Assembly (NCBI GenBank): GCA_003559215.1
Contig: PWMF01000202.1
Coordinates: forward strand, 1-38,836
Origin: Natrialbaceae archaeon
GTDB lineage: Archaea > Halobacteriota > Halobacteria > Halobacteriales > Natrialbaceae
Reading direction: 5' to 3'
Length of the DNA stretch: 38,836 bases
The notes under the pieces are model-generated. The model did not search any database. It saw nothing but the letters and a program-made list of their open reading frames with translations, and was not told the DNA's origin. The first letter of the stretch is position 1; each line of letters starts with the position of its first letter. The position numbers were made by a program, and so were the translations under genes. Shown piece by piece: positions 25,363 to 30,018 of this stretch.

Positions 25363-25662
25363 ATGACTGAAACGACACCACAACCGCTCTCCGAATCGAC
25401 GAACGACTGCTACGTCGTCCAGTACGACCGACTCGGTACCAGCCCGCTCAGCGTCGCGATCGCCGAGGCGGTCGCGACCTACCGCGGGACCGACGCGACG
25501 GAACTCGAGCCGCTGCACTACGCCGTCAACGCCGACGCCCTCGAGCGACTGTTCGAACCGCGAGCCGACGGTCTCCGAACCGGCGGCTCGGTAACCTTCG
25601 AGTACAGCAATTGTTTGATCACCGTTACGGCCGACGGCGAGATCCGCATCACGAGCGCGTAG
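25363..25662 (+). CDS. HalOD1 output-domain protein
   Basis: A 99-residue protein consisting almost wholly of the haloarchaeal output domain: 'SPLSVAIAEAVATYRGTDATELEPLHYAVNADALERLF', then 'GGSVTFEYSNCLITVTADGEIRI'. Such domains occur alone or behind response-regulator and PAS modules. It follows the Bat-type regulator by 98 bp on the same strand, so a shared signalling role is plausible. It resembles the HalOD1 protein at 27616-27966. Confidence 0.85.
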   Translation: MTETTPQPLSESTNDCYVVQYDRLGTSPLSVAIAEAVATYRGTDATELEPLHYAVNADALERLFEPRADGLRTGGSVTFEYSNCLITVTADGEIRITSA

Positions 25663-25704: not shown

Positions 25705-25720
25705 CTATGGTGTATAAACA
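25705..25720 (-). promoter_or_regulatory. Half-conserved dyad site upstream of small gene at 25758
   Basis: CTATGGTGTATAAACA. Read on the minus strand it is TGTTTATACACCATAG. It shares the core TACACCAT with the sites at 28732-28747, 28827-28842 and 29559-29574. One arm is conserved and the other is not. It ends 37 bp before the ATG at 25758, and a TATA-like ATTATATTG follows at 25722-25730. Its orientation is opposite to the other three relative to the gene, but the full consensus is palindromic. Confidence 0.4.
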
Positions 25721-25757
25721 CATTATATTGTAATTATCCCTCTCCCGGAAGAGCTAT

Positions 25758-25886
25758 ATGTACTCGATCGGAAGGGCCGATACCATGTCAGAACACACCA
25801 CCCAGACCATGAAAGACGTCAATCACACGCCACCCGCCGGCGAGTCCGTGACGAACGTCTGGAACCGCGGTCGAGACGACGAGTAG
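25758..25886 (+). CDS. Very small hydrophilic protein (42 or 33 residues)
   Basis: The frame from ATG 25758 runs to TAG at 25884-25886; a second ATG at 25785 gives 33 residues (MSEHTTQTMKDVNHTPPAGE..., ending NVWNRGRDDE). A TATA-like ATTATATTG lies at 25722-25730, about the right distance for a leaderless start at 25758. CGGAAGGG before 25785 could be a ribosome site for the shorter form. The composition is non-repetitive and coding-like. The family is unknown. It marks the left end of the accessory segment. Confidence 0.5.
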   Translation: MYSIGRADTMSEHTTQTMKDVNHTPPAGESVTNVWNRGRDDE

Positions 25887-25909
25887 TCGATCCCTTCTGG
25901 CGGTCGCTC

Positions 25910-26125
25910 TCAGTCCGTTCGAGTTGCGACGCCTTCTCGAATCGTCTCCTCGAGCGGCGCAACCGCTACCCGATAGGAATCGGTTTCTGAAGTAAACAGG
26001 AGGGTCGGAACGAGCGTCGCCTCACACGCCGTGCAGCCCCGACCAGGTGGACGGTTCCGCCGGTTCGATATCTGTTTTGTGGTTCGCAGTCGCTCGAGAT
26101 CACTACTATTGACTACCGCTACCAC
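25910..26125 (-). CDS. Possible small CxxC protein
   Basis: A minus-strand frame with a GTG at 26125 (71 residues) and stop at 25910-25912. The end 'GRGCTACEATLVPTLLFTSETDSYRVAVAPLEETIREGVATRTD' has balanced, protein-like composition and a CTAC pair. The N-terminal half is weaker, and no ATG is in frame nearby. It could be the surviving tail of a larger gene. The family is not recognised. Confidence 0.3.
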   Translation of the reverse strand: MVAVVNSSDLERLRTTKQISNRRNRPPGRGCTACEATLVPTLLFTSETDSYRVAVAPLEETIREGVATRTD

Positions 26126-26464
26126 ATCCTGTGTGCAAAGTGAAACTCGGCCTCCTACCCGTTCGCATACAGGACTGATATGCAAATTAAACGATTCACG
26201 CCTACGACCGACGATGACGCTGTCGAGACCGACGAGTGTCCGTCCTTCGACTGTTCGAGGCCGGTTCCAGCCTGACGAGACGATGCACAAGCTATCGCTG
26301 GAGAACGGAGCAGTTCCGGAAAACAGCGAGCCGAATCGAATCGGCTGCACCTTTCGTTGTCACACGCTCCCTGCAGAAAATAATGTGGAGGGTTCCGGTA
26401 TAAGCTTTGTCACTCTGAGACACTGACCGCCTCGGTCCCGACGACACACTGCACGAACCATCGT

Positions 26465-26640
26465 AGAGCTGGCGTTCGGTGTCGGATATCTCGACCGGCA
26501 GTGCTTCGATGTTTTCTTCGGGGAACATCGGCGTGCCGTCGGTATCATGCATATCGTCCTTCCGAGCGGCGTACGGGTCGACAACGAACGGATCGCTGCC
26601 GTCGGCGCCGAAGATCGCGGCGAGCCCTCAGCGTTGTTCG
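26465..26640 (-). pseudogene. Gene fragment, C-terminal-like piece of an unknown (virus-like) protein
   Basis: In the minus frame, coding-like text runs from a TGA at 26628-26630: 'LAAIFGADGSDPFVVDPYAARKDDMHDTDGTPMFPEENIEALPVEISDTERQLYDGS'-type sequence (positions about 26627 to 26465). It has no start except the internal ATG at 26552. It has normal acidic composition and then runs into random-looking residues. About 24 bp of it (GATGTTCCCC...GAAAACATCGAA) recur at 30224-30247. I read it as debris of an integrated element. Confidence 0.4.
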
Positions 26641-26670
26641 TCAGTCCGTCGCCGCCGTCGCCGACGGTAG

Positions 26671-27145
26671 CTACTCCAGTCTCGGTGCCTTCGCCGCGTT
26701 CTTGATCGGTCCGCCAGGTTTCGAGAGTCCCTTCGACTCGGCTTCGATGTACAGCGTGTTCGTCCCCGAGAGCACGAGGGCCGCCGGGTACTCGTCCTCG
26801 AGGCGCGAGGAACGATCTGCTTGCACTCGTCTTCCGAGAGGTCGCCATCGGGGGCGATTGCTAGCGGGACCTTACCGACCGCGTCGGGCAGTTCATCACC
26901 GTCTCGAGTCGGCAATTCCATCTCGTAGCCGGCGCGGGTTCCCCGCTCGTAGCCGGCGCGGAGCATGTGCCGGTGCTTGCTCTTCCCGCCCGACCCACCC
27001 GAGCCAGTCTCGAGGCCGATCTGACTGCGGTCATCCGGCGTGACGGCGATCTCCAGGGCGTCGCTCGTGCTCCGCTGCTCGAGGGCGCCGACCGCCTCGA
27101 GACGCTCGCCGGTGTTCGACGCCTGCGTGTACTTAGGACGTGAAT
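26671..27145 (-). pseudogene. Decayed gene of unknown (possibly proviral) function, one clear frameshift
   Basis: Two frames join. The first, from about 27145 to 26808, reads 'RPKYTQASNTGERLEAVGALEQ', 'RSQIGLETGSGGSGGKSKHRHMLRAGYERGTRAGYEMELPTRDGDELPDAVGKVPLAIAPDGDLSEDECKQIVPR'. The second, 26802 to a TAG at 26671-26673, reads 'LEDEYPAALVLSGTNTLYIEAESKGLSKPGGPIKNAAKAPRLE'. Two extra bases (GC) at about 26803-26804 separate them. Both halves are acidic and well composed, so the gene was functional not long ago. A start codon is not evident. I cannot assign a family; a virus or plasmid origin is inferred from its company. Confidence 0.5.
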
Positions 27146-27433
27146 CTGAACTGGTCAATTCGTTGCGCAGAGGGTGCATACGTACCTTTTTCGTCGGGTT
27201 CGCTCGCAAGACTCGCTCACCGCTCTCTGCTCATGGGCGCGAAGCGCCCGTTCGCGTGGTCAGCGGGACCTTCGGTCCCGATCGACTCCAAAAATCTACA
27301 TCGAAAAGCCCCCTCGGCGGGCTTCGCCTGCTTCGGCGGGGAGCCGCTCACTTCGCTCGCGGATGCTGGCGGTGAACTCTGCTTCACCTAACGGGTGCTT
27401 CATCAAAATCTCGACCGGTACCCTCGCCGTCGG
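27146..27433. repeat. Hairpin-rich non-coding stretch
   Basis: There is no coding frame. Two perfect hairpins stand side by side: GGGCGC-GAA-GCGCCC (27235-27249) and GGGACC-TTC-GGTCCC (27265-27279). Further GGCGGGCTTCGCC- and CACTTCGCTCGCGG-type GC pairs follow to 27370. Such runs are common in degraded haloarchaeal intergenic DNA. They may terminate transcripts from either side. Confidence 0.45.
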
Positions 27434-27619
27434 TCACTCTGAATGCTCGTTCTTTTCGACCTCCGTGACGATCACGTCCCAGTCAGGATGTTCGACCCCA
27501 TTCCGACACTCGAATCCGCCTTCCACATTGATTCCACTCTCGTAGGCCCTCCGAAGGAGGGCTTTCAACTCTGCGTTCAATTCCTCCTTCGACGTAAGCG
27601 ATGTCTCTTCAGAAGTCAT
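27434..27619 (-). CDS. Small acidic protein coupled to HalOD1 gene
   Basis: A 61-residue protein 'MTSEETSLTSKEELNAELKALLRRAYESG...' ending 'PDWDVIVTEVEKNEHSE'. An amphipathic helix is followed by a short beta segment with a single Cys (FECRNG). Its ATG overlaps the stop of the HalOD1 gene (ATGA, 27616-27619), so translation is coupled. This small-partner arrangement is seen with HalOD1-type genes in haloarchaea. The function is unknown, perhaps a binding partner of the HalOD1 protein. Confidence 0.7.
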   Translation of the reverse strand: MTSEETSLTSKEELNAELKALLRRAYESGINVEGGFECRNGVEHPDWDVIVTEVEKNEHSE

Positions 27620-27966
27620 CTTCCCTCGCCCATTTCGTATTTCTCCGCTGTGGGTTCGTGTTCTGGTGTGATGGTGATCACACCGTAGCTGTGTACGGTT
27701 ATCGCGTGCCCTTCGTGCGTGAACGTGACCTTGGAATCTCCGTTTATCCCGTTTCGAACGCGGACGAGCGCATCTAATTCGTCGGGGTCAACAGTAGAAT
27801 GGAGCGGATCGAGTTCAACCGGATCAGTCCCCATTAGGTCCGCCAGCGTTGCGATAACAGCCGTGCTCGCGGGTGTCTTCTCTTGATCAAATTGGGTGCG
27901 AACAGTCCCAAATTTCTGAAAGTACTCGATCACTTCAACTCCAACCCCAGATACCGTTGTGTCCAT
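27616..27966 (-). CDS. HalOD1 output-domain protein
   Basis: A 116-residue protein starting 'MDTTVSGVGVEVIEYFQKFG'. The HalOD1 domain is 'TPASTAVIATLADLMGTDPVELDPLHSTVDPDELDALVRVR' followed by 'DSKVTFTHEGHAITVHSYGVITI'. I use the ATG at 27966; a TTG at 27999 is in frame. A TATA-like GTATAATC on the minus strand (about 28010-28017) is placed well for a transcript beginning near 27985. It is the first gene of a coupled pair with 27434-27619, and a paralogue in type of 25363-25662. Confidence 0.82.
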   Translation of the reverse strand: MDTTVSGVGVEVIEYFQKFGTVRTQFDQEKTPASTAVIATLADLMGTDPVELDPLHSTVDPDELDALVRVRNGINGDSKVTFTHEGHAITVHSYGVITITPEHEPTAEKYEMGEGR

Positions 27967-28050
27967 CTTGCCCGATTCTAGCCGTCTGAGTTGGTTCAAT
28001 AGGGGTACTGATTATACAGGGGGTTTAACACAAAGAACCTATCCGAACGA

Positions 28051-28695
28051 TTATACCGAACTACTGAGTGTCGCTCTAATGAGGCGTCGATGCCCGCGTC
28101 GAAGGCGTGACGATAGTGATTGCTGGGTGATGTCGAGTTCGTCAGCGATCTCTTCAAGCGACGCCTCGCGTGGGGTGTCGAAGTAGCCCCGCTCGTATGT
28201 CAGTATCAGCGCCTCACGTTGGGTCTCGGTCAACTCGTAGCCTTCCCCCTGGATCGGAAGCATGGCATGGACGGCCGTAATCGCTATCGGAATGTCGTTT
28301 TCCTGGCAGTACTCTCGAAACTCGGCGATCCCCTCCTGGCTCTCGGCGCGCACCTCGAATCGCCACTCGTCTTTTGTTCCGATTCCAGAGAGCACAACGA
28401 CGTTGGCCTCGGCAAGCGCACTCAGGATGCCGAAATACTCTTGCTCCCACTCGGCACGCATGAGATACTCGTCTTCGATGCTATCGACCAGCCGGATGTT
28501 GCTCACGCCGGCGTGTTGTTCGAACGCAGCTTCGATGTCCTCCGTTTCCGCACCGCGTACCCAGAAGTACGGGATAATCAGCGTCTCGTGTGGGATGAGT
28601 CGCTCCAGTTCGACCGCCGCACCCGGCAAGTTCTCGAACACACTCCCCAGTGGAAACTCCGCTACCGGGCTCGTAAACTCCATCACAGTCGCCAT
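28051..28695 (-). CDS. HTH-10 (bacterio-opsin activator type) transcription regulator
   Basis: A 214-residue regulator. The N-terminal about 140 residues form a sensor-like domain ('VFENLPGAAVELERLIPHETLIIPYFWVRG', 'DEYLMRAEWEQEYFGILSALAEANVVVLSG', 'WRFEVRAESQEGIAEFREYCQENDI'). The C-terminus is the HTH-10 domain 'LTETQREALILTYERGYFDTPREASLEEIADELDITQQSLSSRLRRGHRRLI'. ATG 28695 (or 28683). It is paralogous over its full length to the divergent gene at 28887-29552. A TATA-like GTTATTCG lies at 28717-28724 on the minus strand, and the dyad site lies at 28732-28747. It may bind its own promoter (inference). Confidence 0.87.
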   Translation of the reverse strand: MATVMEFTSPVAEFPLGSVFENLPGAAVELERLIPHETLIIPYFWVRGAETEDIEAAFEQHAGVSNIRLVDSIEDEYLMRAEWEQEYFGILSALAEANVVVLSGIGTKDEWRFEVRAESQEGIAEFREYCQENDIPIAITAVHAMLPIQGEGYELTETQREALILTYERGYFDTPREASLEEIADELDITQQSLSSRLRRGHRRLIRATLSSSV

Positions 28696-28731
28696 GGAGA
28701 AGCCTTCGTCTAGCAGACGAATAACTGGAAT

Positions 28732-28747
28732 GGGTGGTGTACCATGG
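28732..28747 (-). promoter_or_regulatory. Dyad operator/UAS candidate upstream of the 28051-28695 regulator
   Basis: On the minus strand CCATGGTACACCACCC, ending 36 bp before the ATG at 28695. Thirteen bases (28735-28747) are an exact inverted copy of 28827-28839. It is one of four sites with consensus CCATGGT-AC-ACCATGG. Confidence 0.6.
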
Positions 28748-28826
28748 CTTCGAGACGAGCCAACGCACCGTTGATAGCCGGGATAGTGTGTGCTGCGAGC
28801 GGGGAATCCGTTTGGCAGCTGAAAAC

Positions 28827-28842
28827 CCATGGTACACCATGC
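28827..28842 (+). promoter_or_regulatory. Dyad operator/UAS candidate upstream of the 28887-29552 regulator
   Basis: CCATGGTACACCATGC, a nearly perfect palindrome with arms CCATGGT and ACCATGC around AC. It ends 44 bp before the ATG at 28887. The orientation relative to its gene is the same as at 28732-28747 and 29559-29574. Confidence 0.6.
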
Positions 28843-28886
28843 CGCCTCCTTTTGTACGACCGACCAATATAGTCTCACAACCGAGC

Positions 28887-29552
28887 ATGAGTGTAATAAC
28901 GGAGATTCGTGTCCCACCCGATGATTTCGAACTCGGACAAATCCTCAGTCTAGAGCACGCGTCGGCAGTCGAACTCGAAACGCTCGTTCCGAGTGGGGGC
29001 GCGACTGTGCCGCTCTTCTGGGTCTACGAACCGGTCGAAAACGGCTTTCTCGATACCGTCGAACGTTATCCGACTGTCAACAGCGTCACGGAGATGGACG
29101 TGTTCGAAGACCGGACGTTGTTCAAACTCGACTGGGATGCGACCCAGGACCACCTTTTTGAGTGCGTCTTGGAAAACGACGGGCAAATACTGGGTGCGAC
29201 TGGATCAGCGGAAGGGTGGAATTTCGAGATACGATTCTCAGACCGCGAGGAATTGAGTCAGTGCCAGGATTGTTGTGAGGACGCGCGCATCTCCCTGAAA
29301 ATAACCCGTATATACAATCCAACGGATCCCGAGGCTGGTCCGTGGTACGGCTTGAGTGAGCCCCAACGAGAAGCGCTGACGCTCGCCGTTCAAATGGGAT
29401 ACTACGACATACCACGGGGCTGTACGACCGCGGAGTTAGCTAACGAGTTCGGAATTTCTGATCAGGCAGTAACGGAGCGACTGCGTCGTGCCGTTGGTAC
29501 GTTCGGGAGGTACGCACTTCTTACTCCCGAGCCAGCGACGCAAATGGACTGA
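28887..29552 (+). CDS. HTH-10 (bacterio-opsin activator type) transcription regulator
   Basis: A 221-residue regulator. The N-terminal sensor-like part is 'VPPDDFELGQILSLEHASAVELETLVPSGGATVPLFWVYEP' and 'TLFKLDWDATQDHLFECVLENDGQILGATGSAEGWNFEIRF', with a Cys pair (CQDCC) near residue 130. The C-terminal HTH-10 is 'LSEPQREALTLAVQMGYYDIPRGCTTAELANEFGISDQAVTERLRRAVGTF'. It is divergent from and paralogous to 28051-28695, with 191 bp between the starts. The ATG at 28887 follows an AATATAG at 28867-28873. The CQDCC cluster is absent in its sister and could be a metal or redox sensor (inference). Confidence 0.87.
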   Translation: MSVITEIRVPPDDFELGQILSLEHASAVELETLVPSGGATVPLFWVYEPVENGFLDTVERYPTVNSVTEMDVFEDRTLFKLDWDATQDHLFECVLENDGQILGATGSAEGWNFEIRFSDREELSQCQDCCEDARISLKITRIYNPTDPEAGPWYGLSEPQREALTLAVQMGYYDIPRGCTTAELANEFGISDQAVTERLRRAVGTFGRYALLTPEPATQMD

Positions 29553-29558
29553 CTGTTT

Positions 29559-29574
29559 CCATTATACACCATGG
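29559..29574 (+). promoter_or_regulatory. Dyad operator/UAS candidate upstream of the winged-helix gene at 29611
   Basis: CCATTATACACCATGG. The right arm ACCATGG is perfect and the left arm has two changes. It ends 36 bp before the ATG at 29611. The embedded TTATAC could itself serve as the TATA box, in which case factor binding here would compete with TBP. Confidence 0.55.
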
Positions 29575-29610
29575 GGAAGGACCAGGCAGTTGGGCCCGCA
29601 TTAGGGGAGT

Positions 29611-30018
29611 ATGGATGAAAGTCGAAAGCTGGGGACACGTGATATCCAGTCAATTGATTCGGTTTCCGGTTCTTCGGGGCATGAGAGAGCGATTTCCCCC
29701 GATACGATTCTATCGGCAGTAGCGAACGAACACCGACGTGCCATCCTCAACGCAGTGACCAACGCTTCCGGGAAGACACTGGAAGACGATGTGCTCGTAG
29801 ATCGCGTTGCAGACCGGGTTCGAGACGAGGACGCGAAGCGGGAGTCAGACGAACATCGACAACGCGTCCGGATCGCACTTCACCATACTCATCTTCCAAA
29901 ACTGGAGGAGGCTCGGATGATCGACTATGAGACTGAAACGGGTCACATCCAGTTTGTTGGCGGTGAACTGGAACAGAAGATCCTGGGGCTGGTCGAGCCG
30001 TACGACATCCACGAGTGA
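29611..30018 (+). CDS. Winged-helix (DUF7344-like) DNA-binding protein
   Basis: A 135-residue protein. A disordered N-terminus is followed by a winged-helix domain: 'SPDTILSAVANEHRRAILNAVTNASGKTLEDDVLVDRVADRVRDED', then 'RQRVRIALHHTHLPKLEEARMIDYETETGHIQFVGGELEQKILGLVE'. The ATG at 29611 follows AGGGGAG, a plausible ribosome site. It lies 58 bp after the HTH-10 gene stop, but has its own dyad site at 29559-29574. It is similar in type to 266-682. It is likely a member of the same local regulatory unit as the HTH-10 pair (inference). Confidence 0.8.
   Translation: MDESRKLGTRDIQSIDSVSGSSGHERAISPDTILSAVANEHRRAILNAVTNASGKTLEDDVLVDRVADRVRDEDAKRESDEHRQRVRIALHHTHLPKLEEARMIDYETETGHIQFVGGELEQKILGLVEPYDIHE

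Follow-up and report, generated by a model that had tools for sequence, protein, structure and literature searches.

We sought to determine which protein reads a 16-bp near-palindromic element that recurs upstream of small neighbouring genes in a contig of a Natrialbaceae archaeon (PWMF01000202.1, 38,836 nt; this whole stretch is called the window below), and which of these genes it serves. The original prediction had placed the element at four positions and had proposed auto- or cross-regulation through it by two paralogous regulators of the helix-turn-helix (HTH) family HTH-10. Taken as a whole, the comparisons described below are best explained by a dyad, with the core CATGGT-NN-ACCATG, that would act as the autoregulatory operator of one of the two, the HTH-10/BAT regulator encoded by gene B (28887-29552), and we consider this reading likely.

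The dyad and the genes that follow it

A search of the window on both strands, allowing ≤3 mismatches to the 16-mer CCATGGTACACCATGG and using shuffles as a control, yielded four matches against 0.02 expected: 28732-28747 on the minus strand, 29559-29574 on the plus strand, and 28827-28842, which was matched on both strands because it is near-palindromic. Three of the four proposed places were thereby recovered, and the one at 25705 was not; recomputed distances from the end of the element to the start codon were, as reported earlier, 36, 44 and 36 bp for the three genes. In the genome to which the window belongs (3.94 Mb, 222 contigs), the same search gave 8 matches versus 12 for a reversed control. 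The three window places account for four of the 8, site 2 being counted twice, and the remaining four are single matches on other contigs, indicating that the motif is concentrated in the window, rather than scattered at equal frequency throughout the genome. The sites, their putative TATA-like boxes and the adjacent genes are as follows.

28732-28747, minus strand: site 1, CCATGGTACACCACCC, candidate operator of the A operon
28827-28842, plus strand: site 2, dyad CATGGTACACCATG (14-mer at 28828-28841), candidate operator of gene B, 8 bp upstream of TTTTGTAC
29559-29574, plus strand: site 3, CCATTATACACCATGG, upstream of gene D
28718-28725, minus strand: TATA-like box of gene A, GTTATTCG, called from the alignment and the fixed dyad spacing
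28850-28857, plus strand: TATA-like box of gene B, TTTTGTAC, called from alignment conservation and the fixed dyad spacing
28051-28695, minus strand: gene A, a BAT and HTH_10 regulator with the helix TQQSLSSRLRRG, candidate target
28887-29552, plus strand: gene B, a BAT and HTH_10 regulator with the recognition helix SDQAVTERLRR, candidate reader of the dyad
29611-30018, plus strand: gene D, coding for a DUF7344 protein

Some relatives carry the perfect palindrome CATGGTGCACCATG. At site 1 the left half is intact, and 22 of the 27 loci having this site show ACCACCC as the right half; at site 3 it is the right half that is nearly invariant, and the left half is altered (among 28 loci, 13 have TTATAC and 6 have TTATGC). 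A further conserved stretch around CAGGCAGTTGGG lies at 29575-29600, between site 3 and the start of the DUF7344 gene.

Proteins A and B both combine BAT and HTH_10 domains and are about 31% identical, in agreement with their earlier designation as paralogous HTH-10 regulators. In protein B, both domains score above the Pfam gathering cut-offs (64.1 versus 23.1 bits for HTH_10 and 34.1 versus 25.8 bits for BAT). No PAS or GAF sensor domains were detected in A or B at E≤0.001, and B is, by its domain content, a member of the HTH_10/BAT regulators and not Bat proper. A conserved CxxCC motif in B was considered as a sensor and rejected, being present in most close orthologues and absent at ≤63% identity. 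A search of solved-structure sequences gave no convincing relative; the single match of a fold search at E≤0.001, made with a weak model, was to Thermoplasma Ta1207 (5m86) and was not used.

The regulator paired with the dyad

We looked for the dyad within 200 bp upstream of 90 relatives of B, its own copy included. It was found upstream of all 52 relatives at ≥46% identity (46-100%, the lowest in the run being 45.8%), with 38 exact copies, 10 with one mismatch and 4 with two, and was absent at ≤3 mismatches from all 38 relatives sampled at 32-44.5% identity, those at ≤44.5% being a sample among the matches listed. Three more relatives above 46%, outside these 52 (G111:C19, G033:C5:382531 and the split gene of G078; G and L labels are our own handles for genomes and loci) have exact dyads listed beside them. 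The recognition helix SDQAVTERLRR is present in 52/52 of the dyad-bearing and 0/38 of the dyad-free relatives, the near-misses among the latter being SAQAVTERLRR (L173) and SDQAVSERIRR (L202). In a tree with 40 dyad-free rows (the 38 relatives, plus protein A entered twice), the dyad group forms one side of a branch with support of 87/63, and the dyad label changes once, with 0/500 shuffles giving as low a number, indicating one clade rather than repeated gains.

An alternative is that the reader is A, a heterodimer of A and B, or an unlinked host regulator, with B being only a target. Proteins A and B are, after all, of the same BAT/HTH_10 type and are encoded side by side, and A has a site as well. 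We nevertheless regard this alternative as improbable. Relatives of A near 50% identity are widespread, and in 16/16 of those taken from other loci (49-56%) no dyad was present at ≤3 mismatches; moreover, in four loci of the 46-49% clade (L072, L073, L075 and L085) no separate A relative was found within about 1.5 kb of the dyad. As the helix of A, TQQSLSSRLRR, is also unlike that of B, A is disfavoured as the reader, and most likely it is B that reads the dyad, with A as its target. Of the family genomes, 49 have a B relative at ≥46% (G027 being counted on a partial relative), and 40 of these contain exact dyads, against 2 of the 72 genomes lacking such a relative, which makes a host regulator with wider duties unlikely.

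Of the 120 other family genomes, 28 have a relative of B at 76-89% identity (that of G078 being divided between two contigs); the distribution is patchy, with such relatives in 2 of the 8 other genomes of the window's genus. In 30 loci, the window's own included, a site at ≤4 mismatches was found next to D in 30/30, next to B in 30/30 and next to A in 27/30. The A-B intergenic alignment comprised 27 rows, L012 being excluded owing to an insertion (roughly 200 bp, which looks like a tandem pair of copies separated by an N), and the B-D alignment comprised 28 regions. Among 14-mers, site 2 ranked first in conservation of the 178 windows of the A-B intergenic region and site 1 ninth, while site 3 ranked first of the 48 windows of the B-D region. 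In the A-B alignment the box of gene B ranked second among 8-mers; conservation of the A box was not outstanding (rank 50 among 7-mers). A model with looping between sites 1 and 2 that depends on strict helical phase was rejected: the distance between their starts ranges over 92-97 bp, and what is constrained seems to be the distance of each site to its promoter, not helical phase. A second copy of A lies near A in L033, L034 (also L257), L035 and L256; in these loci the B-adjacent copy has a full or near-full dyad, and the other copy, where seen, has the ACCACCC form.

The patchiness of these genes and their presence on plasmids mean that the copies may share recent ancestry, so that common descent and recent transfer alone could have preserved a dyad that has no function. 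We find this very hard to accept, given that in conservation sites 2 and 3 rank above everything else in their intergenic regions, that dyads persist at 46-63% protein identity while the upstream flanks are largely different, and that the symmetry is kept while the two centre letters vary, with a fixed 10-nt spacing to the TATA-like box. On the 46-49% branch there are two tandem dyads, the second of which is TATA-proximal, beside a TATTTAC-like box.

Distribution of the dyad and its cassette

Class-wide, 75 of 391 genomes have a match to the dyad. Within the family there are 46 exact dyads in 42 of 121 genomes, versus 5 sites for the reversed control, and 43 of the 46 adjoin a B relative, the exceptions being in G026, G091 and G087. 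Outside the family, loci were fetched for 30 of the 43 exact dyads, and 16 of these 30 hold a B relative with SDQAVTERLRR or a near variant; the listed dyad is upstream of that relative in 14 and elsewhere in two (L133 and L140). In L140 it lies at the start of a DUF7344-like gene, and upstream of the B relative itself there are two dyads, each with a single mismatch. The dyads of L124 and L134 separate B from a divergent gene which, as judged by eye, is similar to the small-protein gene of the window. In L147 (1501-1802), an exact dyad covers the start of a HalOD1-like gene beside an HTH-10 gene with a different helix, and may be a chance occurrence or a further target.

A composite pattern was defined as the dyad followed by N9-11 and TTWT, the latter being described as the haloarchaeal TATA motif in PMC4983044. 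It gave 53 matches versus 2 for the control, of which 48 are cassette promoters (38 of B and 10 of A), all with exactly N10; the others are one B dyad read backwards and 4 unlinked matches, two of them inside long open reading frames (ORFs). A genome-wide regulon was rejected: whether the 16-mer (≤3 mismatches), the exact dyad or the composite was used, leftover matches were near control level, with 3 of the 46 exact family dyads away from B versus 5 in the control, and 4 unlinked composites versus 2. From these counts the operator appears close to private to its cassette, with no sign of a wider regulon. The element does not accompany HTH-10, DUF7344 and HalOD1 genes in general; it is associated with one HTH-10 clade and the cassette of that clade.

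This cassette consists of five genes: those for a small protein, a HalOD1 protein and A, all on the minus strand, followed by the divergent B and DUF7344 (D) genes on the plus strand. Its two remaining members in the window are as follows.

27616-27966, minus strand: HalOD1-domain gene, probably co-transcribed with A; start taken from annotated 351-bp relatives (the longest ORF starts at 27999)
27434-27619, minus strand: gene for a small conserved 61-aa protein, last gene of the proposed A operon

The cassette HalOD1 protein scores 50.2 bits against the model of DdfA (disk-determining factor), below the cut-off of 70, and is therefore not called DdfA. In 19 loci (L098-L116) the small protein, A, B and D are present in 19/19 and HalOD1 in 18/19, and none of the four other window genes tested recurs consistently beside the cassette there. 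The hosts are Natrialbaceae genera, Haladaptatus (on a plasmid), Halovenus, Halorubrum, Halorientalis, Halorussus, Halapricum, Natronocalculus, a Haloarculaceae archaeon and a Salinarchaeum bin; in one locus, L112, A and B are about 2.6 kb apart. Relatives of B at 77-89% identity are carried by 7 plasmid records, including pR1SE2 of Halorubrum lacusprofundi strain HLS1 (L264), which has the five-gene cassette with dyads before A and B; a plasmid of Halostagnicola larsenii (L263) also has all five genes. A genetic system has reportedly been described for H. lacusprofundi (PMC10102395). Plasmid pR1SE spreads in plasmid vesicles (PMC10818511), and pR1SE2 is akin to it as judged by name, the accessible part of that source making no mention of pR1SE2. 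No B relative was found at E≤1e-10 in a phage collection. The cassette is patchy across haloarchaeal families and is partly on plasmids. In Haloterrigena sp. H1, two copies give full-length matches (L102 and L115), and a contig end carries an additional decayed cassette with a broken B and an intact dyad (L117); the view of L117 as a cassette with a swapped B was rejected upon translation, which revealed a decayed copy that has kept its dyad.

The place at 25705, proposed as a fourth and more degenerate copy of the dyad, was rejected, since a different conserved promoter block is found there. Upstream regions were examined in 14 of the 30 loci fetched for the small gene at 25758, relatives of which are present in 54 of 121 family genomes. 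A block like GTGTATAAACACATTATATTGTAATTAT is kept in 13 of the 14, three of the 13 being more changed, while the letters ATGGT persist in 5 regions, which all come from the window's genus. In the window this block, GTGTATAAACACATTATATTGTAATTATT at 25705-25735, contains the palindrome GTGTATAAACAC and precedes the small conserved gene, which does not belong to the gene set of the element. Three close relatives lack an ATG at the codon corresponding to 25758, and the gene therefore probably starts at 25785. At 25363-25662 is a gene for a small HalOD1 protein barely above the DdfA model cut-off (70.3 versus 70 bits).

Proposed mode of action and a possible wider operator code

Sites 1 and 2 lie exactly 10 nt (counted from ACCA to TTWT) upstream of a TATA-like box, with boxes called by sequence only; at both B and A, 8 bp separate the end of the 14-mer dyad from the TTTT or TTAT of the box. 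The dyad thus leaves the box free and occupies a position from which an upstream activator could contact the TATA-binding protein (TBP) and transcription factor B (TFB). The position is fixed in all 48 composite cassette promoters, although spacers of 9-11 were allowed, and no TFB recognition element (BRE) of the CGAAA type was seen in the dyad-box spacer in the intergenic alignment. Placement just upstream of TATA, as had been suggested, therefore applies to A and B and fails for the DUF7344 gene, with no TATA-like box found downstream of site 3 in the alignment of B-D regions.

The closest precedent is Bat of Halobacterium, which has an HTH domain similar to that of A and B and acts as an activator through the upstream activator sequence (UAS) of the bop, brp and crtB1 promoters. 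Its regulatory site is located 5′ to bop and near brp and crtB1 (PMC1447603). Bat is described as having PAS and GAF sensor domains, which A and B lack, and its targets are retinal and opsin genes, whereas the cassette site precedes regulatory genes. The bop UAS reads ACCcnactagTTnGG, which is not this dyad, and the bop promoter reportedly has no TFB recognition element. Among other relatives, DmsR of Halobacterium sp. NRC-1 is likened to Bat by the description of its HTH, and is a positive regulator of an operon, that of anaerobic respiration; we know of no mapped DmsR operator. HVO_1357 of Haloferax volcanii shares BAT and HTH-10 domains with A and B, but is a multidomain response regulator (receiver-HalX-GAF-BAT-HTH-10), with no operator given in the part of the source available. 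In the same species DdfA, which has the HalOD1 domain in common with the cassette protein, is described as needed for disk shape. A search of the open-licence literature, outside which most subscription papers lie, yielded no account of the element, in keeping with the earlier statement that none was known; nor was any mention of DUF7344 found there.

We infer the binding, dimerisation, sign of control, transcription starts and operons of the following scheme. A dimer of B would bind the dyad with one SDQAVTERLRR helix per half-site. It would sit 8 bp upstream of the TATA-like box in two promoters, that of B itself at site 2 and that of the divergent A-HalOD1-small-protein operon at site 1. 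Bound B would most likely help TBP and TFB to start transcription, yielding positive autoregulation and coupled firing of both arms, which the position of the dyad and the bop UAS precedent make the likeliest outcome. At site 3, where the left half has changed to TTATAC and no box follows, B may prevent or tune initiation at an internal start; as a guess, the site could overlap D's own box or influence transcripts reading through from B.

With the same operator and reader, B could instead be a repressor, exerting negative autoregulation beside BRE/TATA and keeping both arms off until a signal reaches the BAT domain. Autoregulators of the HTH type often are repressors, the dyad at site 3 contains TATA-like letters, and another HTH-10 clade has dyads flanking its TATA-like box. 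This possibility is to be taken seriously, yet we think it rather unlikely: at A and B the dyad is entirely upstream of the box, at a fixed spacing and with no CGAAA-type BRE in between, and an activator role is described for both relatives, Bat and DmsR.

Several observations weigh against an operator read by B in its proposed activating role. The dyad and the helix both track one clade, so that common descent explains part of their correlation. In L133, where the helix is TDQAVTERLRR, no dyad at ≤2 mismatches is present in the 169 bp available upstream of the B relative. The background is higher outside the family, where the 43 exact dyads, in 39 of 290 genomes, compare with 18 control sites, and 14 of the 30 loci fetched there have no helix-bearing B relative, five of them having another HTH-10 gene. 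Site 3 does not fit the activator geometry, and the AlphaFold model is weak at the HTH (predicted local distance difference test, pLDDT, of 39-57 by blocks). In L012 site 1 is split by the insertion, with site 2 intact, and the two 62%-identity loci examined (L036 and L037) have no A-proximal site at ≤4 mismatches. Of the two parts of the original proposal, autoregulation of B is strongly favoured by the clade-exact co-occurrence, the shared helix and the presence in other families; cross-regulation of the A operon is favoured by a site equally spaced from a TATA-like box, although these two loci lack it.

Instead of CATGGTNNACCATG, L133 (1-169) has an altered palindrome, CCTGGTATGCCAGG, 60 bp upstream of the B relative, and its one-residue helix change may possibly represent a joint change of helix and operator. 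In another HTH-10 clade, with the helix SDSALSQ, two dyads TTCGANNTCGAA with a 2-bp centre are present in 5 of 7 members examined, 41-43 bp apart around a GTTTTTGG-like box (L182, L183, L189, L194 and L196; one copy in L189 has a single change). In the SDSAVSQ group, palindromes with a half-site of ≥5 and a 2-bp centre were found in 6/14 versus 2.5 in shuffles, at most a mild excess of unlike palindromes, and in the sister clade L170-L175 they were found in 0/6. The tandem dyads of the SDSALSQ clade and the altered palindrome of L133 make a clade-by-clade operator code for HTH-10 regulators plausible. We put forward more tentatively the combined proposal that each clade has its own helix-matched palindrome with a 2-bp centre, and that the one described here belongs to a self-contained, horizontally moving five-gene switch.

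Regulators of the HTH-10 type are numerous in haloarchaea, with 3 to at least 24 B relatives per family genome at E≤1e-10 (the best 24 being scored), and to our knowledge the Bat UAS is the only HTH-10 operator known. The dyad and the helix co-occur without exception in the 90 relatives and would therefore constitute a directly testable protein-DNA pair, and their pairing offers a route to the operators of other HTH-10 clades. The dyad-bearing promoter is a candidate for a natural, portable autoregulated promoter in haloarchaeal genetics, and the HalOD1 and DUF7344 proteins would be tied to one regulatory circuit. If the more tentative combined proposal is correct, the cassette would be a switch with an operator found almost nowhere else in its host, which senses a signal and commits as a unit.

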